Origin: Comamonadaceae bacterium
GTDB lineage: Bacteria > Pseudomonadota > Gammaproteobacteria > Burkholderiales > Burkholderiaceae_C
DNA length: 64,000 bases
NCBI GenBank assembly: GCA_013297985.1
Contig: JAAFIY010000002.1
Location: 1-64,000, forward strand
Direction of reading: 5' to 3'
Positions 12,688 through 51,946 of this stretch are shown piece by piece; position 1 is the first letter of the stretch, and every line of letters starts with the position of its first letter. The notes beneath the pieces were generated by a model that saw nothing but the letters and a program-made list of their open reading frames with translations, ran no database searches and had not been told where the DNA came from. The position numbers and the translations under genes are program-made.

Positions 12688-13905
12688 TCACGCTGCCAGC
12701 CTCACAAACGGCAGCACAGTGCCCCGCTGCATGCCTTCGAGCAGGTTGCCCCATTCCTGCATCATCCGCGCCCGCTGGGTGAGGTACTGCGCGTGGTTGT
12801 AGGCCGCTGATACCGCGTTGCGCTCTTGGTGGGCTAGCTGGGCTTCGATGTGGGCGTGCTCAAACCCATGTTCGTGCAGCACCGTGGAGGCGATGCCACG
12901 GAAGCCGTGCCCGGTCATCGTGCCTTTGTAGCCCATGCGCTCTAGGGCTTTGAGGATGGTGTTGTTGCTCATCGGCCCACGCGGGTTGCGCTCGCCTGGG
13001 AACAGGTGTTCGCGGTGTCCGGTGACTTCCCGCAGCACTGCCAGCACTTCGACTGCCTGGGTTGACAGGGGCACCACATGGGGGGTTCGCATCTTCATCC
13101 GCTCGGCTGGAATGTCCCAGCGCCGCGCCTCAAGGTCGAACTCGGTCCACTTGGCACCGATCAACTCGCCGGTGCGAACGAAGGTGAGCGCCATCAGCTT
13201 TATGGCCAGCCGGGTCGCGGGCGTGCCTTGGTAGCCTTCAATTTTGCGCAGCAGGGTGGGCAGTTCGCGCACATCTACCCGGGCATAGTTCAACTTCTTG
13301 CGCTCGGGCAGGATGTCGCCCGGCTTGATGTCGGTGGCTGGGTTGCGTGTGGCTCCGCCTAACCCGTGTGCGATGGCGTAGCGAAACACCTGCCCCGCCA
13401 TTTGCAGGCACCGCGCAGCAATGTCCACAGCGCCCCGCGCCTCGATGGTCTTGAGCATCTTCACGAGGTCGGGCGCTTGCACCTCGGCAACGGGGCGGGC
13501 ACCGATGGCGGGGAACACATCAGCTTGCAGCCGCGCAATGACGTAGCCCGCGTGCCTGGGGTTCTTGCCCGTCCTCCAGTGGGCATGCCACTGCCGCGCC
13601 ACGGCTTCAAAGGTGTGGGTGCGGGCTTGTTCTCGCTGGGCTAGCTGGGCGCGTTTGACCTCGATGGGGTCGGCCCCCTTGGCGATCACTTTGCGCAGTT
13701 CGTCGCGCTTGTCGCGGGCATCGGTCAGGCTCACAGCCGGGTAGCTGCCAAGCGATGCGGTCCTTTCGCGCCCCTCATGGCGGTAGCGCAGTTGCCACAG
13801 CTTGGACCCTGTTGGCTGGACAACCAACTGCAAGCCCTTTTCGTCGGTGAGTTTGTACGGCTTGTCGCTGGCTTTGGCCTTGCGAATAGCGGTGTCGGTC
13901 AGCAT
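12688..13905 (-). CDS. P4-type tyrosine recombinase (integrase)
   Basis: 405 residues. The N-terminal arm-binding domain (LTDTAIRKAKASDKPYKLTD; DEKGLQLVVQPTGSKLWQL) is typical of P4/CP4-57 integrases. The catalytic domain shows the first Arg in FVRTGELIGAKW, the HxxR box in TGHGFRGIASTVLHEHG, and a late H...Y segment (LAHQERNAVSAAYNHAQYL). Length is standard. The gene begins 254 bp from tRNA-Ser, the usual position for a tRNA-integrating element. It would catalyse integration at, and excision from, the tRNA 3' end. Confidence 0.93.
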   Translation of the reverse strand: MLTDTAIRKAKASDKPYKLTDEKGLQLVVQPTGSKLWQLRYRHEGRERTASLGSYPAVSLTDARDKRDELRKVIAKGADPIEVKRAQLAQREQARTHTFEAVARQWHAHWRTGKNPRHAGYVIARLQADVFPAIGARPVAEVQAPDLVKMLKTIEARGAVDIAARCLQMAGQVFRYAIAHGLGGATRNPATDIKPGDILPERKKLNYARVDVRELPTLLRKIEGYQGTPATRLAIKLMALTFVRTGELIGAKWTEFDLEARRWDIPAERMKMRTPHVVPLSTQAVEVLAVLREVTGHREHLFPGERNPRGPMSNNTILKALERMGYKGTMTGHGFRGIASTVLHEHGFEHAHIEAQLAHQERNAVSAAYNHAQYLTQRARMMQEWGNLLEGMQRGTVLPFVRLAA

Positions 13906-14159
13906 TTTTTACCCCTTTCCGGCGTAACTGGGTTACGCAGAAACCTTACAGTTTGGAAACCAACTGTGGGTAACGGAGGGGCTGGCGTGTGGGTAACGCC
14001 CAAATTGCCCTCAAATTTACCCTCAGCAAGCGTCGGCTTCATGCGGACCTATGCGGACCGATGAAGACGCCTAATGCAGTCGTCTGTAAAGAAAGAGGGA
14101 GGGACAGAGCGCCTTTTGGCGCTTGTCAGACCCGGGGATGCCCCTTTTTCGAGGCTTAT
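13906..14159. other. Attachment region between integrase and tRNA-Ser
   Basis: Non-coding. It contains the inverted repeat GCGTAACTGGGTTACGC (13922-13938), two copies of GTGGGTAACG nearby, two copies of TGCGGACC near 14045, and TTACCCTCAG at 14017-14026, which recurs at 2449-2458 near the other end. Repeats of this kind fit integrase or excisionase arm sites. AGCGCCTTTTGGCGCT at 14108 is a short hairpin. Confidence 0.5.
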
Positions 14160-14249
14160 TGGCGGAGGGGGCGGGATTCGAACCCGCGGTGGGGATTAAC
14201 CCACACACGCTTTCCAGGCGTGCGACTTAAACCGCTCATCCACCCCTCC
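14160..14249 (-). tRNA. tRNA-Ser (anticodon GGA)
   Basis: On the minus strand the gene begins GGAGGGGTGGATGAGCGG and ends with CCCCTCC pairing to the 5' GGAGGGG, discriminator G and an encoded CCA. The anticodon loop reads CCTGGAAAG with anticodon GGA. A long variable arm (GTGGGTTAATCCCCAC region) marks a class II serine tRNA. T-loop GGTTCGAATCC is present. The satellite is integrated at its 3' end and regenerates it. Confidence 0.95.
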
Positions 14250-42317: not shown

Positions 42318-43961
42318 ATGACGCACGACACCGTATTGATTCTGGACTTTGGCTCGCAAGTCACCCAGCTCATTGCTCGCCGCATTCGCGAAGCGCATGT
42401 GTATTGCGAGGTGCACCCCTGCGATGTGTCAGACGATTGGCTGCGCCAATACGCCGCCAGCGGCAAAGTGCGCGGGGTGATCTTGTCGGGCAGCCACGCC
42501 AGCTTGTGGGAAGACGAAAGCCTGCGTGCACCCAAAGCGGTGTTTGAGTTGGGCGTGCCGGTGTTGGGCATCTGCTTTGGCATGTACGCCATTGCCGAGG
42601 CGCTGGGCGGCACGGTGGAAGGTGGACACAAGCGCGAATTTGGCTATGCCGAGGTGCGTGCGCGTGGTCATACCAAGCTGTTTGACGGCATCCAAGACTA
42701 CGCCACAGCCGAAGGCCACGGCATGCTGCATGTGTGGATGAGCCACGGTGACAACGTCACCCAGATGCCACCGGGCTTCAAGCTCATGGCCAGCACCGAC
42801 AGCTGCCCGATTGCGGGCATGGCCGATGAACAGCGGCGCATCTACGGCGTGCAGTTTCACCCCGAGGTGACGCACACCACACAGGGCCGCGCCATCCTCA
42901 ATCGCTTTGTGCTGGACATCTGCGGCGCAAAGCCCGATTGGGTGATGAAAGACCACATCGAAGAAGCCGTGGCCGCCATCCGCGCCCAGGTGGGGGATGA
43001 AGAAGTCGTCTTGGGGCTGTCAGGCGGGGTGGATTCATCGGTGGCCGCAGCCCTCATCCACCGCGCCATTGGCGATCAATTGACCTGCGTGTTTGTCGAC
43101 CACGGCCTGCTGCGGCTGAACGAAGGCGACGCGGTCATGGACATGTTTGTGGGCCAGCTGCACGCCAAAGTGATTCGGGTGGATGCGTCTGATCGCTTTC
43201 TGGGCGCGCTGGCAGGCGTGGCCGAGCCAGAAGCTAAACGCAAAATCATCGGCCGTGAATTTGTAGAGGTTTTTAAGGCCCAAGCGCAGCAATTGACTGC
43301 CCAAGCAGCTACAAATTCTGTAGCAACCGCGTCGCAACGCCGTGGCGCCACATTCTTGGCCCAAGGCACGATCTACCCTGACGTGATCGAGAGCGGCGGC
43401 GCCAAAAGCAAGAAAGCTGTCACCATCAAAAGCCACCACAACGTAGGCGGTCTGCCCGAGCAGCTAGGCCTAAAGCTGTTGGAGCCCCTGCGCGACTTGT
43501 TCAAAGACGAAGTGCGCGAACTGGGCGTGGCCTTAGGCCTGCCACCCCACATGGTGTACCGCCACCCCTTTCCCGGCCCCGGGCTGGGCGTGCGCATCTT
43601 GGGCGAAGTCAAACGCGAATACGCCGACCTATTGCGCCAAGCCGACGCCATCTTTATTGAAGAACTGCGCCGCCACACCGACCCCGCCACCGGCAAAACC
43701 TGGTACGACCTAACAAGTCAAGCCTTCGCCGTCTTCTTGCCTGTGAAAAGCGTCGGCGTGATGGGCGACGGCCGCACCTACGACTATGTGGTGGCCCTGC
43801 GCGCGGTGCAAACCAGCGACTTCATGACGGCCGACTGGGCCGAGCTGCCGTATGCGCTGCTAAAGAAAGTGTCGAGCCGCATCATCAATGAGGTGCGGGG
43901 GATTAACCGGGTGACCTACGACGTGAGCAGCAAGCCGCCGGCGACGATTGAGTGGGAGTGA
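42318..43961 (+). CDS. guaA: GMP synthase (glutamine-hydrolysing)
   Basis: 547 residues from the ATG at 42318. The class-I glutaminase has [16 protein letters not shown] with the catalytic Cys near 85; the ATP pyrophosphatase has [17 protein letters not shown] near 234; the dimerisation domain ends KPPATIEWE. It converts XMP to GMP. Compared with remembered E. coli GuaA, about 20 residues are inserted between EVFK and [10 protein letters not shown]; these are encoded by a dispersed-repeat copy ([15 protein letters not shown]) plus flanks. The last 19 bp of the gene recur twice downstream, marking the 3' end as an attachment site for islands. Confidence 0.96.
43276..43328 (+). repeat. Dispersed-repeat copy inside guaA
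   Basis: GGCCCAAGCGCAG, nine codons from GCG to GCT, then ACAAATTCTGTAGCAACC with the perfect second hairpin GCTACA / TGTAGC. Sense orientation, shared phase. It encodes residues about 323-337, absent from remembered GuaA sequences. Confidence 0.88.
43943..43961 (+). other. Attachment-like site 1: guaA 3' end
   Basis: GACGATTGAGTGGGAGTGA, ending in the guaA stop codon. It matches 51928-51946 at 18 of 19 positions. Shifted by one base and extended two, it matches 54035-54054 at 18 of 20. The guaA 3' end is a known integration site of genomic islands in varied bacteria. Confidence 0.7.
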
Positions 43962-44029
43962 CGGAGAGTTCTGGTTGCTTGCGATTGGTGTGCGCTTTGC
44001 ATACGAGACGGTGACTATGCGACACCGTG

Positions 44030-44848
44030 CTAGGCTGCAGACCGAATAGCATCAATCGCCTTGTTAATTGAAGACGAGCCTAAGCGTGTAAACACTGAAT
44101 TGAGGAAAGAAAGCCGATTATTGGCATCCGCAGTGTGTTTATAGAAATCGTCGTTGTCGTCAAAGTATCCCCAATCGTTTCGTATGTTTCCCGACGCTTT
44201 TGTATTGGGCAATGCTTGAATAAAAGACGAAGAATTTGCATTCCATTGCGAGTTGCCAGCGAGGTGGATGCCGAATCCGACAGAGCGACCTTCATTCGCA
44301 AGCTTCTTACGAGCAGCATTTGCTAGAGGCATATCAACAACATAAGAGTCCAGCGCGATCCATTTTCTTTCCAAGAAAACTTCTGCAACCGCATGGTCAA
44401 CGAATGCTGTGCCCGGTGAGAATAGGCCGCGAAGTACCTGTGAAGACAAGGCAACATATCGAATGCGCGTAGGGATATCAACTGATCGGAGTAATGCGCA
44501 AAAAAGCATCGCTTTTGTGTTGCAGTATCCCAGCTGTCTATCAAGTACCTCGCTAGCTTTCATATCGTAGAAAGCAGGTGCAATACCGAATTGAATGTTA
44601 TCGCGTACCCAGTTGTGAATCTTGGCTGCTCTATCTAGATCATTTCCAGCGCCATCAACCAAAGTTTGCGCCAGTCCCACTACGGCGTTATGGTTGCTAT
44701 CAATTAAACGTGTGGGTTGGGTATGCTTTTTCGTCGGTAAATCCGCGAAGTTTTCGCTTGCCAAAATAGTTGAACTGAATGTCATGGTCAATACCCCACC
44801 GGCTATCTGGCTTAAGACATCGCGGCGCAGCAAATCCTTTTCCTTCAT
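44030..44848 (-). CDS. Transglutaminase-like exported protein, complete copy
   Basis: 272 residues from the ATG at 44848, preferred because GGAAG lies before it and the N-terminus then reads MKEKDLLRRDVLSQIAGGVL, a twin-arginine-like signal; in-frame ATGs also exist at 44860 and 44890. The transglutaminase/protease-like core shows the Cys in RQLGYCNTKAMLFCALLRSV, the His in TAFVDHAVAEVFLERKW and the Asp in IALDSYVVD. Such domains cut or link peptides. It is the last gene of the TspO-like/SOUL/transglutaminase operon and the only copy with its own C-terminus (SSSINKAIDAIRSAA). Confidence 0.82.
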   Translation of the reverse strand: MKEKDLLRRDVLSQIAGGVLTMTFSSTILASENFADLPTKKHTQPTRLIDSNHNAVVGLAQTLVDGAGNDLDRAAKIHNWVRDNIQFGIAPAFYDMKASEVLDRQLGYCNTKAMLFCALLRSVDIPTRIRYVALSSQVLRGLFSPGTAFVDHAVAEVFLERKWIALDSYVVDMPLANAARKKLANEGRSVGFGIHLAGNSQWNANSSSFIQALPNTKASGNIRNDWGYFDDNDDFYKHTADANNRLSFLNSVFTRLGSSSINKAIDAIRSAA

Positions 44849-44871
44849 CTCGGCTTCCATGGATGTGTAGC

Positions 44872-45477
44872 TTATTGCATTTCTAACCATATCTCGTTGC
44901 GTCGCATAAACCGAGGTGTCAGAGGTCGGTTGTAGCGGGCAAGTACGGGTTCACCCTTTGTAGACAAACTATTGGATTTCAAAGTGCTGCGTAACTTAGA
45001 CAAATACCACTCGTCGTTTGCAGCCGACCAAGCGCCCGAATAGCGAATGACAGCCCATTGTCTAGCTGGTATTTGACGCAGTTGAATGCGTGAGTCCAAC
45101 GGCTCGGGTGCGCTTTCCAAATTTACTGTTCTGGGCAGGACAAATTGAATCTGTGTGCCACCCTCTACATTTACATGAGTCACGGGAGCAGTCATTTCCA
45201 TTTTCATTGGGACTCTAGACTGAGTGACCGGCGCTGTCATTTCGAACTGACGCTCGCCTTTGTTTTTTCCGAAGATATAACCAGCCAGTATGGGAAATGC
45301 AAGGTTACCCGCATCCTCGGGCTTTGAATCAATAACAACCTGAGCCACAACGTAGGGGTTGTACTGCCGTACCTCAACCTGATCTATGGTTTGAACGACT
45401 CGATAGCCAGGCTCTTCAGCAGCTTGACTCATCCATGGAAAAACTAAAAGGAGAATTTTGGATAAAAAGCGCAGCAT
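44872..45477 (-). CDS. SOUL heme-binding family protein, copy A
   Basis: 201 residues with a signal peptide (MLRFLSKILLLVFPWMSQAA) and the SOUL/HBP fold: GYRVVQTIDQVEVRQYNPYV, VAQVVID, KNKGERQFEMTAPVTQSRVP, MKMEMTAPVTHVNVEGGTQ and PARQWAVIRYSG. SOUL proteins bind heme or porphyrins; here in the periplasm. GGAGC lies before the ATG. The preceding gene encodes a TspO-like protein, also a porphyrin-binding family, so a joint heme/porphyrin role is likely. Confidence 0.88.
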   Translation of the reverse strand: MLRFLSKILLLVFPWMSQAAEEPGYRVVQTIDQVEVRQYNPYVVAQVVIDSKPEDAGNLAFPILAGYIFGKNKGERQFEMTAPVTQSRVPMKMEMTAPVTHVNVEGGTQIQFVLPRTVNLESAPEPLDSRIQLRQIPARQWAVIRYSGAWSAANDEWYLSKLRSTLKSNSLSTKGEPVLARYNRPLTPRFMRRNEIWLEMQ

Positions 45478-45529
45478 ATGTGCTCCGTAAAGTTGACGAA
45501 ATGTAGTGGGTATTCCCGAGAAGGAAGAC

Positions 45530-46309
45530 TTATCGGGTTGCTGTCATTGATTTAGATCGCTTGCGTACATAAAAAGTAGTTATCACGATTGCAACAATCA
45601 CACACCCAGCACCTGCGGCAACCAATGGTTGATTGGTGGAAATCAAATTGTCAACAATGATGGCAACTTGAGCCCAAAGCAGCGTTAGTACGTAGGCCAT
45701 AGAAGCCTTGGTTTTGTAAATCATGGTGAGTGCGATCAAGGATGCACAGGCGAGTGTGAAAAATGCGAGAGCGACGTTTTGCAATCCGAAAATAGAGATG
45801 CCATATTCAGGCAAGATGTTTGTGAAGTTAAGCACAGTAGCCGCAGTTAACCATCCAGCATAAATGCCAAGTAGTGGTCGAACAACGCGTCGCTCGCCTT
45901 TTGTCGGAGAGCTGTTTTGAAGGGAGATAAGAAGTGCAGCTGAAATTAGCGTAAACATGATCACAATGAGTGGAATGGTTAGATATGCTGGACCCCAGCG
46001 TGCAAACACGATCCAAGCAACGCAAGATGCGAAACATCCCGCTGTGTACCAGCCGATTTTCTTGTAGATTGGGTTCGAGTGTTGTGAAGGTAATGCCTGT
46101 AACACACCATACACGACTGAGAGCGAGTAAATCAAAAACCAAATTGCGAACGCATAGATGGCAGGAGTTGCAAAATCCTGTTGTGCCGAAATCGGACCAT
46201 CAGCGGACAGAACCTCAAAATCCGATGCGCCAAAGACCAAGTTAGCGGTTATGAACTGTGCTATCGCTAGAATCAAGTTAAGCGTGATGCGAAAAAAATC
46301 AGAATTCAT
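45530..46309 (-). CDS. TspO/MBR-related membrane protein, copy A
   Basis: 259 residues, about seven hydrophobic helices. Recognised by the pattern AQFITANLVFGASDFEVLSA, FATPAIYAFAIWFLIYSLSV, then GIYAGWLTAATVLNFTNILP, as in the longer tryptophan-rich sensory (TspO-like) proteins. Family members bind porphyrins and sense or move them. First gene of the operon, 52 bp before the SOUL gene. AT-rich compared with the chromosome core, a sign of transfer. Confidence 0.8.
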   Translation of the reverse strand: MNSDFFRITLNLILAIAQFITANLVFGASDFEVLSADGPISAQQDFATPAIYAFAIWFLIYSLSVVYGVLQALPSQHSNPIYKKIGWYTAGCFASCVAWIVFARWGPAYLTIPLIVIMFTLISAALLISLQNSSPTKGERRVVRPLLGIYAGWLTAATVLNFTNILPEYGISIFGLQNVALAFFTLACASLIALTMIYKTKASMAYVLTLLWAQVAIIVDNLISTNQPLVAAGAGCVIVAIVITTFYVRKRSKSMTATR

Positions 46310-46356
46310 GAACAGGCCTTTTCTAGGTGGAGGTAAATTTCTTTCTTTTAATAACT

Positions 46357-46372
46357 TATATCATATGATATA
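46357..46372. promoter_or_regulatory. 16-bp perfect palindrome, candidate TetR operator, copy A
   Basis: TATATCATATGATATA lies 48 bp upstream of the TspO-like gene in an AT-rich stretch that also contains -10-like boxes. Before the IS insertion it would have lain between this operon and the divergent tetR gene, the usual operator position. Confidence 0.6.
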
Positions 46373-46435
46373 TTTTATTATCCTTCCGGCCGTAGTGGTT
46401 ATTTCGAGCTATTGATCGGAGTTAGGGAAGGTCTG

Positions 46436-47619
46436 AAAAATCGCTCATCCAGCGGTGCTCACTGACAAGCGTGGCCACTTTGGTCGGTTTTGATCTGATT
46501 TCACTCATCAAAGGCCTGGGTGAGGGTGTTTGGGTGCGCCCTTGCCGCGTTTGCAGGCCGCAGTGGTCGCTTGCAGACACACTTGTCCATCCAGTACCTC
46601 AAGCCGTTTGCGCGCCATCCACAGATTGGCCAGAGCAAACAAGGTGTGCAGTTGAGCGGTGTTCTTTTGGAGTCCGCGATAGCGCACCTTGACATGACCA
46701 AACTGGCGCTTGAGGACACGAAACGGATGCTCGACCTTGGCGCGCATGCGAGCCGTCAGGCGTTCACGCTGATCAATCAGGGCGTCAATGGGGTCGGCCT
46801 TGTCCAGCGCACGGCGCAGCCCCGGGCGCATGGCGGTGATCCAGGGGATGTGGCGCGTGGCCTCAGCCCGCTTGGCCACGCCCTGGTAGCCCGCATCGCC
46901 CAGCGCGACTTCTTCTTCGCCATGCAACAGCGCATGGGCCTGGGTAACGTCGTTAACGTTGGCAGGCGTGCCAATGACGGTGTGCACCAGGCCCGACTGC
47001 GCATCCACGCCGATGTGGGCCTTCATCCCGAAGTACCACTGATTGCCCTTCTTGGCTTGGTGCATCTCAGGGTCACGCTCGCCACTGGCGTTCTTGGTCG
47101 AACTCGGGGCCGCAATCAGTGTGGCGTCCACCACTGTGCCCGCCTTGAGCAGCAGGCCCTTTTGGCTGAGCACGCCGTTGACCAAGGCCAGCATCTGCAC
47201 AGCCAAGTCGTGGCGCTCCAGCAGGTGGCGAAACCTCAGGATGGTGCTCTCATCGGGCAGCCGGGTGCTCCAGTTGTCCAGGCCCGCAAACTCCCGAAAC
47301 AGCGGCACGTCGTGCAGTGCCTCTTCCATCGCCGGATCGCTCAGCGTGAACCACTGCTGCATGAAGTGAATGCGCAGCATGGTGTCAATGCCAAAGGGCG
47401 GGCGGCCCCGCACACTGACCGGTGCATAGGGGGCCACAAGGGCCACCAAGCGATCCCAGGGCACCACGCGGTTCATCTCGTCCAAGAACTCGCGTTTGCG
47501 GGTGCGCTTGTTCGACAGGTTCAGGCCCAGATCGGTTTGCTTCATGGTTCGAATTGTCTGGCCTCGGTCAGCTACGGGCTACGCCCAGGGGGTCTGAGGT
47601 GGACTTTTGCAGACTTTCC
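46436..47619 (-). mobile_element. IS5-family insertion sequence, copy A (1184 bp)
   Basis: Terminal inverted repeats GGAAGGTCTGAAAAA and GGAAAGTCTGCAAAA match at 13 of 15 positions. It encodes one transposase of the IS5 type. The left flank is TTAG (46432-46435); the right flank is CTAA belonging to the second duplication unit, so this copy has no target duplication of its own. Confidence 0.93.
46508..47545 (-). CDS. IS5-family transposase, copy A
   Basis: 345 residues: MKQTDLGLNLSNKRTRKREF, a DDE domain with the Asp in GTVVDATLIAAPSSTKN, the second in LGDAGYQGVAKRAEA, and the Glu in RAKVEHPFRVLKRQFG (the YREK-like element). Intact and probably active. It is transcribed toward the TspO-like operon, so readthrough could raise expression of that operon. 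Confidence 0.95.
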   Translation of the reverse strand: MKQTDLGLNLSNKRTRKREFLDEMNRVVPWDRLVALVAPYAPVSVRGRPPFGIDTMLRIHFMQQWFTLSDPAMEEALHDVPLFREFAGLDNWSTRLPDESTILRFRHLLERHDLAVQMLALVNGVLSQKGLLLKAGTVVDATLIAAPSSTKNASGERDPEMHQAKKGNQWYFGMKAHIGVDAQSGLVHTVIGTPANVNDVTQAHALLHGEEEVALGDAGYQGVAKRAEATRHIPWITAMRPGLRRALDKADPIDALIDQRERLTARMRAKVEHPFRVLKRQFGHVKVRYRGLQKNTAQLHTLFALANLWMARKRLEVLDGQVCLQATTAACKRGKGAPKHPHPGL

Positions 47620-48388
47620 CTAAGCGTGTAAACACTGAATTGAGGAAAGAAAGCCGATTATTGGCATCCGCAGTGTGTTTATAGAAATCGTCGTTGTCGT
47701 CAAAGTATCCCCAATCGTTTCGTATGTTTCCCGACGCTTTTGTATTGGGCAATGCTTGAATAAAAGACGAAGAATTTGCATTCCATTGCGAGTTGCCAGC
47801 GAGGTGGATGCCGAATCCGACAGAGCGACCTTCATTCGCAAGCTTCTTACGAGCAGCATTTGCTAGAGGCATATCAACAACATAAGAGTCCAGCGCGATC
47901 CATTTTCTTTCCAAGAAAACTTCTGCAACCGCATGGTCAACGAATGCTGTGCCCGGTGAGAATAGGCCGCGAAGTACCTGTGAAGACAAGGCAACATATC
48001 GAATGCGCGTAGGGATATCAACTGATCGGAGTAATGCGCAAAAAAGCATCGCTTTTGTGTTGCAGTATCCCAGCTGTCTATCAAGTACCTCGCTAGCTTT
48101 CATATCGTAGAAAGCAGGTGCAATACCGAATTGAATGTTATCGCGTACCCAGTTGTGAATCTTGGCTGCTCTATCTAGATCATTTCCAGCGCCATCAACC
48201 AAAGTTTGCGCCAGTCCCACTACGGCGTTATGGTTGCTATCAATTAAACGTGTGGGTTGGGTATGCTTTTTCGTCGGTAAATCCGCGAAGTTTTCGCTTG
48301 CCAAAATAGTTGAACTGAATGTCATGGTCAATACCCCACCGGCTATCTGGCTTAAGACATCGCGGCGCAGCAAATCCTTTTCCTTCAT
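47579..48388 (-). CDS. Transglutaminase-like protein, copy B with IS-replaced C-terminus
   Basis: Identical to copy A up to FLNSVFTRLG, after which the last 15 residues are replaced by KVCKSPPQTPWA read from the end of the IS element. The catalytic Cys, His and Asp are all retained, so activity is possible. The truncation follows directly from the duplication breakpoint at the CTAA. The start is chosen as in copy A. Confidence 0.8.
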   Translation of the reverse strand: MKEKDLLRRDVLSQIAGGVLTMTFSSTILASENFADLPTKKHTQPTRLIDSNHNAVVGLAQTLVDGAGNDLDRAAKIHNWVRDNIQFGIAPAFYDMKASEVLDRQLGYCNTKAMLFCALLRSVDIPTRIRYVALSSQVLRGLFSPGTAFVDHAVAEVFLERKWIALDSYVVDMPLANAARKKLANEGRSVGFGIHLAGNSQWNANSSSFIQALPNTKASGNIRNDWGYFDDNDDFYKHTADANNRLSFLNSVFTRLGKVCKSPPQTPWA

Positions 48389-48411
48389 CTCGGCTTCCAT
48401 GGATGTGTAGC

Positions 48412-49017
48412 TTATTGCATTTCTAACCATATCTCGTTGCGTCGCATAAACCGAGGTGTCAGAGGTCGGTTGTAGCGGGCAAGTACGGGTTCACCCTTTG
48501 TAGACAAACTATTGGATTTCAAAGTGCTGCGTAACTTAGACAAATACCACTCGTCGTTTGCAGCCGACCAAGCGCCCGAATAGCGAATGACAGCCCATTG
48601 TCTAGCTGGTATTTGACGCAGTTGAATGCGTGAGTCCAACGGCTCGGGTGCGCTTTCCAAATTTACTGTTCTGGGCAGGACAAATTGAATCTGTGTGCCA
48701 CCCTCTACATTTACATGAGTCACGGGAGCAGTCATTTCCATTTTCATTGGGACTCTAGACTGAGTGACCGGCGCTGTCATTTCGAACTGACGCTCGCCTT
48801 TGTTTTTTCCGAAGATATAACCAGCCAGTATGGGAAATGCAAGGTTACCCGCATCCTCGGGCTTTGAATCAATAACAACCTGAGCCACAACGTAGGGGTT
48901 GTACTGCCGTACCTCAACCTGATCTATGGTTTGAACGACTCGATAGCCAGGCTCTTCAGCAGCTTGACTCATCCATGGAAAAACTAAAAGGAGAATTTTG
49001 GATAAAAAGCGCAGCAT
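48412..49017 (-). CDS. SOUL heme-binding family protein, copy B
   Basis: Identical 201-residue protein to copy A, with the same signal peptide and SOUL motifs. The second copy doubles gene dosage. It stands downstream of the second TspO-like copy and runs into the truncated transglutaminase gene. Confidence 0.88.
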   Translation of the reverse strand: MLRFLSKILLLVFPWMSQAAEEPGYRVVQTIDQVEVRQYNPYVVAQVVIDSKPEDAGNLAFPILAGYIFGKNKGERQFEMTAPVTQSRVPMKMEMTAPVTHVNVEGGTQIQFVLPRTVNLESAPEPLDSRIQLRQIPARQWAVIRYSGAWSAANDEWYLSKLRSTLKSNSLSTKGEPVLARYNRPLTPRFMRRNEIWLEMQ

Positions 49018-49069
49018 ATGTGCTCCGTAAAGTTGACGAAATGTAGTGGGTATTCCCGAGAAGGAAGAC

Positions 49070-49849
49070 TTATCGGGTTGCTGTCATTGATTTAGATCGC
49101 TTGCGTACATAAAAAGTAGTTATCACGATTGCAACAATCACACACCCAGCACCTGCGGCAACCAATGGTTGATTGGTGGAAATCAAATTGTCAACAATGA
49201 TGGCAACTTGAGCCCAAAGCAGCGTTAGTACGTAGGCCATAGAAGCCTTGGTTTTGTAAATCATGGTGAGTGCGATCAAGGATGCACAGGCGAGTGTGAA
49301 AAATGCGAGAGCGACGTTTTGCAATCCGAAAATAGAGATGCCATATTCAGGCAAGATGTTTGTGAAGTTAAGCACAGTAGCCGCAGTTAACCATCCAGCA
49401 TAAATGCCAAGTAGTGGTCGAACAACGCGTCGCTCGCCTTTTGTCGGAGAGCTGTTTTGAAGGGAGATAAGAAGTGCAGCTGAAATTAGCGTAAACATGA
49501 TCACAATGAGTGGAATGGTTAGATATGCTGGACCCCAGCGTGCAAACACGATCCAAGCAACGCAAGATGCGAAACATCCCGCTGTGTACCAGCCGATTTT
49601 CTTGTAGATTGGGTTCGAGTGTTGTGAAGGTAATGCCTGTAACACACCATACACGACTGAGAGCGAGTAAATCAAAAACCAAATTGCGAACGCATAGATG
49701 GCAGGAGTTGCAAAATCCTGTTGTGCCGAAATCGGACCATCAGCGGACAGAACCTCAAAATCCGATGCGCCAAAGACCAAGTTAGCGGTTATGAACTGTG
49801 CTATCGCTAGAATCAAGTTAAGCGTGATGCGAAAAAAATCAGAATTCAT
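49070..49849 (-). CDS. TspO/MBR-related membrane protein, copy B
   Basis: Identical 259-residue protein to copy A. Its promoter region, including the palindrome at 49897-49912, is also duplicated, so it can be transcribed independently of copy A. IS copy B lies upstream and reads toward it. Confidence 0.8.
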   Translation of the reverse strand: MNSDFFRITLNLILAIAQFITANLVFGASDFEVLSADGPISAQQDFATPAIYAFAIWFLIYSLSVVYGVLQALPSQHSNPIYKKIGWYTAGCFASCVAWIVFARWGPAYLTIPLIVIMFTLISAALLISLQNSSPTKGERRVVRPLLGIYAGWLTAATVLNFTNILPEYGISIFGLQNVALAFFTLACASLIALTMIYKTKASMAYVLTLLWAQVAIIVDNLISTNQPLVAAGAGCVIVAIVITTFYVRKRSKSMTATR

Positions 49850-49896
49850 GAACAGGCCTTTTCTAGGTGGAGGTAAATTTCTTTCTTTTAATAACT

Positions 49897-49912
49897 TATA
49901 TCATATGATATA
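49897..49912. promoter_or_regulatory. 16-bp palindrome, candidate TetR operator, copy B
   Basis: Same TATATCATATGATATA sequence and distance to the TspO-like start as in copy A. It is now separated from tetR by one IS element. Confidence 0.6.
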
Positions 49913-49975
49913 TTTTATTATCCTTCCGGCCGTAGTGGTTATTTCGAGCTATTGATCGGAGTTAGGGAAGGTCTG

Positions 49976-51159
49976 AAAAATCGCTCATCCAGCGGTGCTC
50001 ACTGACAAGCGTGGCCACTTTGGTCGGTTTTGATCTGATTTCACTCATCAAAGGCCTGGGTGAGGGTGTTTGGGTGCGCCCTTGCCGCGTTTGCAGGCCG
50101 CAGTGGTCGCTTGCAGACACACTTGTCCATCCAGTACCTCAAGCCGTTTGCGCGCCATCCACAGATTGGCCAGAGCAAACAAGGTGTGCAGTTGAGCGGT
50201 GTTCTTTTGGAGTCCGCGATAGCGCACCTTGACATGACCAAACTGGCGCTTGAGGACACGAAACGGATGCTCGACCTTGGCGCGCATGCGAGCCGTCAGG
50301 CGTTCACGCTGATCAATCAGGGCGTCAATGGGGTCGGCCTTGTCCAGCGCACGGCGCAGCCCCGGGCGCATGGCGGTGATCCAGGGGATGTGGCGCGTGG
50401 CCTCAGCCCGCTTGGCCACGCCCTGGTAGCCCGCATCGCCCAGCGCGACTTCTTCTTCGCCATGCAACAGCGCATGGGCCTGGGTAACGTCGTTAACGTT
50501 GGCAGGCGTGCCAATGACGGTGTGCACCAGGCCCGACTGCGCATCCACGCCGATGTGGGCCTTCATCCCGAAGTACCACTGATTGCCCTTCTTGGCTTGG
50601 TGCATCTCAGGGTCACGCTCGCCACTGGCGTTCTTGGTCGAACTCGGGGCCGCAATCAGTGTGGCGTCCACCACTGTGCCCGCCTTGAGCAGCAGGCCCT
50701 TTTGGCTGAGCACGCCGTTGACCAAGGCCAGCATCTGCACAGCCAAGTCGTGGCGCTCCAGCAGGTGGCGAAACCTCAGGATGGTGCTCTCATCGGGCAG
50801 CCGGGTGCTCCAGTTGTCCAGGCCCGCAAACTCCCGAAACAGCGGCACGTCGTGCAGTGCCTCTTCCATCGCCGGATCGCTCAGCGTGAACCACTGCTGC
50901 ATGAAGTGAATGCGCAGCATGGTGTCAATGCCAAAGGGCGGGCGGCCCCGCACACTGACCGGTGCATAGGGGGCCACAAGGGCCACCAAGCGATCCCAGG
51001 GCACCACGCGGTTCATCTCGTCCAAGAACTCGCGTTTGCGGGTGCGCTTGTTCGACAGGTTCAGGCCCAGATCGGTTTGCTTCATGGTTCGAATTGTCTG
51101 GCCTCGGTCAGCTACGGGCTACGCCCAGGGGGTCTGAGGTGGACTTTTGCAGACTTTCC
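49976..51159 (-). mobile_element. IS5-family insertion sequence, copy B (1184 bp)
   Basis: Identical to copy A. TTAG is present on both sides (49972-49975 and 51160-51163), the 4-bp target duplication expected for IS5-family elements. It ends seven bases before the tetR start codon. Confidence 0.93.
50048..51085 (-). CDS. IS5-family transposase, copy B
   Basis: Identical 345-residue DDE transposase to copy A with all catalytic motifs. Orientation is toward the second TspO-like operon copy and away from tetR. Confidence 0.95.
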   Translation of the reverse strand: MKQTDLGLNLSNKRTRKREFLDEMNRVVPWDRLVALVAPYAPVSVRGRPPFGIDTMLRIHFMQQWFTLSDPAMEEALHDVPLFREFAGLDNWSTRLPDESTILRFRHLLERHDLAVQMLALVNGVLSQKGLLLKAGTVVDATLIAAPSSTKNASGERDPEMHQAKKGNQWYFGMKAHIGVDAQSGLVHTVIGTPANVNDVTQAHALLHGEEEVALGDAGYQGVAKRAEATRHIPWITAMRPGLRRALDKADPIDALIDQRERLTARMRAKVEHPFRVLKRQFGHVKVRYRGLQKNTAQLHTLFALANLWMARKRLEVLDGQVCLQATTAACKRGKGAPKHPHPGL

Positions 51160-51166
51160 TTAGAAG

Positions 51167-51781
51167 ATGAGGCAAAAAGGCAGTCGTAACAACGCGTATG
51201 AGGAGAGACGCACTGAGCTGCTGGAGCGCCTACTAGCGCGTCTGGCACGCCGAGACTCGGGATATATAAGCATGCGAGAGCTGGCCTCTGCTGCGGGCGT
51301 GACAGTGCCTACGCTGACGCACTATTTCGGTGGACGCGATCAACTCGTACAGAAGGTTCTTGAAGAGCAAGAAGTTGCTGGGCGTCCTTACCGTGCTATT
51401 GCTTCAAGTTCTTCAGAACCGTTCCCCCGTTCAATTCGCTCTTTTTTAGAGTATTTGAGGGAAGGGCATTTTCACGGTGTGGGTTTAATTCATGCCGCTG
51501 GTTTAGCTGAAGGGCTAGGTAACGATACCTTAGGGCCCAGCTATCTAGCAAACATCCTAGAACCCGTGCTCCAAGTAGCAGAAGCTAGACTAGGCGAGCA
51601 TGTTGCAAAAAAGGAAATGAGAGCCTGCGATCTTCGCTCTGCGGCTTTAGCTTTGATTGCGCCATTGCTTTTGCTCTTGCTGCACCAGAAAGAGTTAGGT
51701 GGGCATTGCGTTCGCATTGCCAATATAGATGCCTTTATTGAATCGCACTGTGAGGCCTTTGTACTGGGCTACAGAGCTTAA
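51167..51781 (+). CDS. TetR/AcrR family transcriptional regulator
   Basis: 204 residues. N-terminal helix-turn-helix YISMRELASAAGVTVPTLTH, then YFGGRDQLVQKVLEEQEVAG; the C-terminal ligand domain is divergent and ends IESHCEAFVLGYRA. It was probably the divergently transcribed repressor of the TspO-like/SOUL/transglutaminase operon: removing the IS and the duplication leaves about 130 bp between the two starts with a 16-bp palindrome between them. The IS now sits seven bases before the ATG and has cut off the native promoter and ribosome-binding region, so expression is likely lowered or altered. Confidence 0.85.
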   Translation: MRQKGSRNNAYEERRTELLERLLARLARRDSGYISMRELASAAGVTVPTLTHYFGGRDQLVQKVLEEQEVAGRPYRAIASSSSEPFPRSIRSFLEYLREGHFHGVGLIHAAGLAEGLGNDTLGPSYLANILEPVLQVAEARLGEHVAKKEMRACDLRSAALALIAPLLLLLLHQKELGGHCVRIANIDAFIESHCEAFVLGYRA

Positions 51782-51927
51782 CTCTTCCTTACTGGCATCG
51801 CCAGTACCTGACTGACATCAAATTTTCTGACGGTAAAGCTGACGGTATGGATGATCTTGGACGATGTAGTGCAATCGTCCGGCTAAGAGCAACGCGATGC
51901 AATTACGTTCAAATTTTCTCGCGGGTT

Positions 51928-51946
51928 GACAATTGAGTGGGAGTGA
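51928..51946 (+). other. Attachment-like site 2: copy of guaA 3' end
   Basis: GACAATTGAGTGGGAGTGA differs from the guaA end by one base. It stands outside any gene, 147 bp after tetR, and closes the AT-rich segment. Best explained as the far attachment site of an island inserted at guaA. Confidence 0.7.

Follow-up and report, generated by a model that had tools for sequence, protein, structure and literature searches.

The window, by which we mean the whole 64,000-nucleotide stretch of DNA that was analysed, contains two 3,540-bp units in direct succession, and our preferred reading, to which we give about an even chance of being correct, is that they form a hemi-flanked tandem duplication made by an insertion sequence (IS) of the IS5 family, most likely by replicative transposition to a CTAA target on the sister chromosome. 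Each unit consists, in order, of CTAA, three leftward genes, TTAG and a 1,194-bp IS. A comparison of 44079-47619 with 47619-51159 gives 3541 identical bases at a period of 3540 with zero mismatches, and this perfect identity fits a recent event. The unit coordinates, the TTAG and CTAA letters and the 3540-bp identity given by an earlier, sequence-only reading of the region are correct to the base. The features of the repeat and its right-hand neighbour are as follows.

44080..47619, unstranded: unit 1, made up of CTAA, the three-gene operon, TTAG and the IS, identical to unit 2 over 3540 bp
47620..51159, unstranded: unit 2, with bounds set by the junctions
44080..44083, unstranded: CTAA at the left edge, a native, uninterrupted target within the 3' end of the transglutaminase-like gene
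44030..44890, minus strand: complete transglutaminase-like protein, 286 aa (PF01841, 2.2e-18)
44872..45477, minus strand, second copy at 48412-49017: SOUL heme-binding protein, 201 aa (PF04832, 1.4e-41)
45530..46309, minus strand, second copy at 49070-49849: membrane protein, 259 aa
46357..46372, unstranded, also in unit 2: perfect 16-bp palindrome TATATCATATGATATA in the operon promoter region, a candidate operator
46422..46425, unstranded, again at 49962-49965: TTAG to the left of the IS
46426..47619, minus strand: IS copy 1, internal, with TTAG on its left and CTAA on its right; it lacks a target duplication and joins two loci
46508..47545, minus strand, unit-2 copy at 50048-51085: intact transposase gene, 345 aa (PF01609, 1.5e-33)
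47620..47623, unstranded: CTAA abutting the IS end, the novel junction
49966..51159, minus strand: IS copy 2, flanking, with TTAG on both sides, the original insertion site
51160..51163, unstranded: TTAG to the right of IS copy 2, the target-site duplication from the original insertion
51167..51781, plus strand: divergent TetR-family regulator gene (PF00440, 1.2e-07), outside the repeat and to its right

The two ends of the transglutaminase-like gene copies allow the junctions to be polarized. The match to homologues from other genomes extends over the whole C-terminus of the unit-1 protein but not over that of unit 2 (47579-48430, 283 aa), in which the C-terminal tail has been swapped for IS-encoded residues. 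The left border at 44080 is therefore ancestral and the IS-CTAA join derived. Because this join coincides exactly with the terminal IS base and also with a YTAR tetranucleotide, it is more than chance and is credible; YTAR start positions make up 0.5% of the window and 1% of the operon. The 1 bp of identity (a C) at the join is put down to chance. Illegitimate recombination was considered as an origin and is disfavoured, given homology of 1 bp only and the exact IS end.

The element itself belongs to the IS5 family. Its terminal inverted repeats, GGAAGGTCTGAAAAA and GGAAAGTCTGCAAAA, are alike at 13 of 15 positions, and it encodes a DDE transposase that matches the IS5-family model NF033581 (transpos_IS5_4) over its full length with 325 bits against a cut-off of 140, in addition to PF01609 and PF05598. 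The TTAG/TTAG pair around copy 2 is a 4-bp duplication of the YTAR form. Thus, the family assignment made from the letters alone is borne out, and so is the proposal that YTAR is the target: among 44 related elements with both ends locatable by pattern (a rough end-pattern classification), 29 have a perfect 4-bp duplication, which in 26 is YTAR (CTAG, CTAA, TTAG or TTAA). Nine further rows among the relatives, representing at least eight distinct elements, have two unlike YTAR flanks, as is expected for elements that joined two loci or recombined, and IS copy 1 belongs to this class. Apart from the two transposase copies, the draft genome has no PF01609 gene, and neither a further copy of the IS nor a trace of an IS at 44080 was found in it.

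To compare possible routes, the expected products were built by script, as a string simulation, from a single-copy parent and set against the observed 13-kb stretch. Base for base, the window sequence results when the IS transposes replicatively to CTAA between sisters. It is also obtained when one sister alone acquires a second IS at CTAA that then recombines with the old IS of the other sister, and when an excised [operon-IS] circle re-enters through RecA. In contrast, crossing-over with the IS fixed on both sides gives a product with three ISs, whereas the window has two, and a hybrid element moved by cut-and-paste was rejected since its product keeps one IS only. The junction logic excludes these last two routes as direct origins, but it does not discriminate replicative transposition from insertion plus recombination. 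The sequence-only reading had taken the junctions as diagnostic of an IS end attacking the sister chromosome, and this cannot be upheld when insertion plus recombination and circle re-integration give an identical sequence; the sister-attack mechanism itself is plausible, and its computed product matches. Its dismissal of unequal crossing-over was right for ISs already fixed at both borders, for which a third IS would be expected at 44080, but does not extend to an IS freshly inserted on one sister.

In our preferred reading, the IS first entered a TTAG site that lies between the operon and tetR, a step shown by the TTAG target duplication. The transposase would then have joined the right IS end to the native CTAA that lies 2.3 kb away within the transglutaminase-like gene. 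The joined end is seen directly, and the pathway to it was most likely a replicative transposition whose target lay on the sister chromosome, behind the replication fork. The two-chromosome intermediate would resolve into one chromosome carrying operon-IS-operon-IS, the form seen here, and another from which the operon is deleted. Subsequent RecA recombination between the units could add or remove further copies. This replicative sister route is favoured by the exact IS terminus on a YTAR target with no other scar, by the native left boundary and by the lack of a third IS at 44080. Against it, two other routes yield the same sequence, the hemi-flanked cases known from Escherichia coli are dominated by IS1 and have a median amplicon of 142 kb versus 3.5 kb here, and the assembler may have produced the second copy by unrolling a loop.

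The two routes with the same product deserve closer attention. An IS inserted into 44080 on one sister, duplicating CTAA, could have recombined with the old IS of the unoccupied sister; this requires only an ordinary simple insertion and RecA, and neighbouring insertions do occur, as in another genome of the bacterial family (G025/L067), where two identical IS5-family copies lie 3.06 kb apart with their own duplications, TTAA and TTAG. However, it calls for two events and a crossover inside 1.2 kb, and the IS that it places at 44080 has left no trace in the draft genome; we consider it unlikely. An [operon-IS] circle, formed by intramolecular replicative transposition to CTAA, could either have re-entered an undeleted chromosome through RecA or still lie free beside a single-copy chromosome. 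Re-entry reproduces the observed sequence exactly, and a free circle together with a single-copy chromosome would account for the 127-mers of the contig completely and leave no surplus. The circle carries no recognized replication origin, though, and would be lost unless re-integrated, and searches with the IS and the operon match contig C106 only; we regard this route as decidedly unlikely. Canonical unequal crossing-over between two ISs flanking the operon on the same chromosome is the commonest textbook route to IS-bounded duplications, but it leaves three ISs, one of them flanked by CTAA on both sides at 44080, where the window has two ISs and a native CTAA. It would require a later exchange with an IS-free left flank and is, in our view, very improbable.

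The source genome is a draft of 193 contigs and 3.76 Mb that is 90% complete and has no detectable 16S rRNA. In the 953 kb of it that were sampled, adjacent contigs overlap at their ends by exactly 125-126 nt, there are two exact tandem repeats with a period of 127 (L157 10308 and L187 10375), and the longest perfect repeat besides the 3540-bp unit is 155 bp. Taken together, these end overlaps, period-127 repeats and the lack of any other long perfect repeat point to an assembly of short reads by a de Bruijn method at a k of about 127. Such an assembly is unable to span a 3.5-kb perfect repeat and can only unroll a loop. The window differs from a single-copy chromosome by 125 k-mers of length 127 and no more. 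A tandem copy, a circle or another strain bearing the IS at 44080 would each account for all of these equally well. On account of the assembly type, the copy count is unreliable: the sequence is as described, the presence of two copies is an inference of the assembler, and the cellular copy count is unproven.

A chimera of strains is a further explanation. If one strain carried the IS at TTAG and another at CTAA, an assembler could have threaded both through the common operon and IS; the mixture supplies all 127-mers of the contig, and the source assembly was drafted from short reads. Such a mixture should also contain an L-CTAA-IS junction and an empty TTAG site. Both are absent from the bin, which lowers the probability of this explanation without removing it, since pieces of a minor strain may escape binning; we judge it improbable. 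A pure assembly artefact, with an IS-CTAA join that occurs in no cell, would have counterparts in the artefact-like exact period-127 repeats elsewhere in the draft (L157 and L187). Those repeats match the k-mer size, however, and the 3540-bp period does not. Since an artefact has no reason to choose the last IS base and a YTAR site, which is where the join falls, this explanation is hardly tenable.

Hemi-flanked IS-associated amplification has been described in E. coli and Acinetobacter by Yelin & Kishony 2026 (PMC13423834). It made up 54 of 106 de novo IS-associated amplifications in laboratory E. coli, mostly with IS1 and with a median amplicon of 142 kb, and one E. coli case was validated by ultra-long reads (PMC13423834). 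A model of inter-sister replicative transposition was already proposed there (Extended Data Fig. 1), and according to the authors, alternative topologies are inseparable by short reads (PMC13423834). Members of the IS5 family reportedly move by a replicative as well as a conservative mechanism, and IS903 gives rise to adjacent deletions (PMC11708052).

The arrangement in the window has the architecture described in PMC13423834. An internal IS joins distant loci between the amplicon copies (copy 1, with TTAG on its left and, on its right, the CTAA with which a unit starts), and an IS lies at one outer border, the right, with its TTAG duplication, whereas the other border is native and consists of the ancestral gene end. 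The canonical flanked form has an IS on both outer borders, and there is none at 44080. The differences lie in the element (IS5-family instead of IS1-dominated), in the host (a natural draft genome with betaproteobacterial relatives instead of laboratory E. coli), in the size of the unit (3.5 kb against the 142-kb median) and in the source of the evidence, which here is a draft assembly. The adjacent deletions and cointegrates of IS5 and IS903 (PMC11708052) concern elements of this IS family, and identical chemistry would yield the reciprocal deletion product; unlike the IS903 adjacent deletions, it is the duplication partner that is seen here. Novelty is confined to the case itself: a natural draft genome, a very short unit and an element of the IS5 family. 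Systematic catalogues of hemi-flanked duplications come from laboratory-evolved E. coli and Acinetobacter; should reads confirm it, the present case would broaden the mechanism to a different setting and a different type of element.

Both copies of the unit retain their own promoter region, and on the preferred reading all three genes would consequently be doubled. A literature search for papers on an operon with such gene content found none. The membrane protein of 259 aa has no Pfam match even at E 10, and its relatives, at 25-30% identity, occur in 3 other genomes of 399 searched, so that it is rare in the family. The G+C content is 45.7% in the operon and 61-62% both in guaA and in the left part of the window, and the low-GC segment is enclosed by a pair of attachment-like repeats.

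43947..43961, plus strand: ATTGAGTGGGAGTGA, att-like left copy, at the guaA 3' end
51932..51946, plus strand: ATTGAGTGGGAGTGA, att-like right copy, the second of the pair

This is a 15-bp exact direct repeat, for which shuffles expect 0 occurrences, and it contains GAGTGGGA, the core of the published attachment site of guaA islands (PMC9376610). A direct repeat with the attachment core is thus found at both ends, as in islands integrated at guaA, but no integrase (PF00589) was matched within 43947-51946, the nearest on the contig being at 12784-13275. From the flanking repeats and the base composition, we infer that the duplicated operon is probably the cargo of an integrase-less island at the guaA site. 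The likeness to the GIsul2-type islands of the guaA 3' end (PMC9376610) lies in the direct repeat with GAGTGGGA, one copy of which stands at the end of guaA and the other where the low-GC insert ends on its far side. Unlike GIsul2, the segment here has no integrase gene and none of the GIsul2 cargo; it carries SOUL, transglutaminase-like, membrane protein and TetR genes instead.

We also looked for relatives of the locus and for further arrays. The single-copy state, which the sequence-only reading had proposed to seek in relatives, was not found, and the source genome is the sole member of its genus among the genomes compared. A membrane-protein scan of the genome contigs gave no relatives, and at those loci of transglutaminase relatives (at most 46% identity outside the source genome) that were inspected, the operon is not shared. 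A second hemi-flanked array did not emerge when 80 IS loci, and three more loci with IS copies close together, were each compared with themselves. G025 was rejected as a candidate because it represents two independent insertions, each with its own target duplication, and the L069 repeat because it involves a different IS.

The position of the IS relative to tetR suggests a further consequence. When the IS flanks are joined, the empty site is rebuilt as ...GATCGGAG-TTAG-AAGATG..., and the IS parts the tetR ATG from a likely Shine-Dalgarno sequence, GGAG, of that joined site. Should the operon be repressed by TetR, its expression would have risen with the insertion, ahead of the duplication. On a fuller reading, which we put forward tentatively and think doubtful, one IS would have raised the output of the island operon twice, with tetR losing its Shine-Dalgarno sequence (and probably its promoter too), the palindromic operator being derepressed and replicative doubling following, as a selected natural case. 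If true, derepression and a gain in dosage would be combined for a heme-binding/transglutaminase-like operon.

The duplicated operon lies within a low-GC segment (window 43947-51946) bounded by two copies of the direct repeat ATTGAGTGGGAGTGA, and the repeats and base composition together suggest that this segment is a guaA-site island carrying the operon as its cargo. No integrase gene was found inside the segment. Elsewhere on the same contig, the minus strand encodes a tyrosine integrase of 405 aa whose gene adjoins a tRNA-Ser gene, and this pair, at 12688-14249, is probably a second island boundary.

14160-14249, tRNA-Ser gene, neighbour of the integrase gene
43947-43961, ATTGAGTGGGAGTGA, left copy, end of guaA
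45530-46309, membrane protein of the operon, 259 aa, without a Pfam match
51932-51946, ATTGAGTGGGAGTGA, right copy, 8 kb downstream of the guaA end

Distant relatives of this membrane protein were found in only three other genomes among the 399 searched across the family and order. The operon promoter region holds a perfect 16-bp palindrome, TATATCATATGATATA (46357-46372), a candidate TetR operator, and the IS has parted the tetR start codon from its own GGAG Shine-Dalgarno sequence (46357-46425 and 51160-51170).

Two further contigs of the draft genome carry exact tandem repeats of period 127.

L157, 10308-10562
L187, 10375-10628

These are probably k-mer-sized assembly artefacts; L157 also holds a related sequence lacking the extra unit.

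In another genome of the family (G025, L067:2647-6902), two identical IS5-family copies in the same orientation, 3,057 bp apart and each with a separate target duplication (TTAA and TTAG), flank glycosyltransferase-like and membrane-protein genes, a substrate ready for canonical duplication by unequal crossing-over. A Rubrivivax metagenome-assembled genome (L124) has several IS5-family transposase genes in one orientation within 12 kb, two of them 92% identical with a spacing of 2,031 bp.
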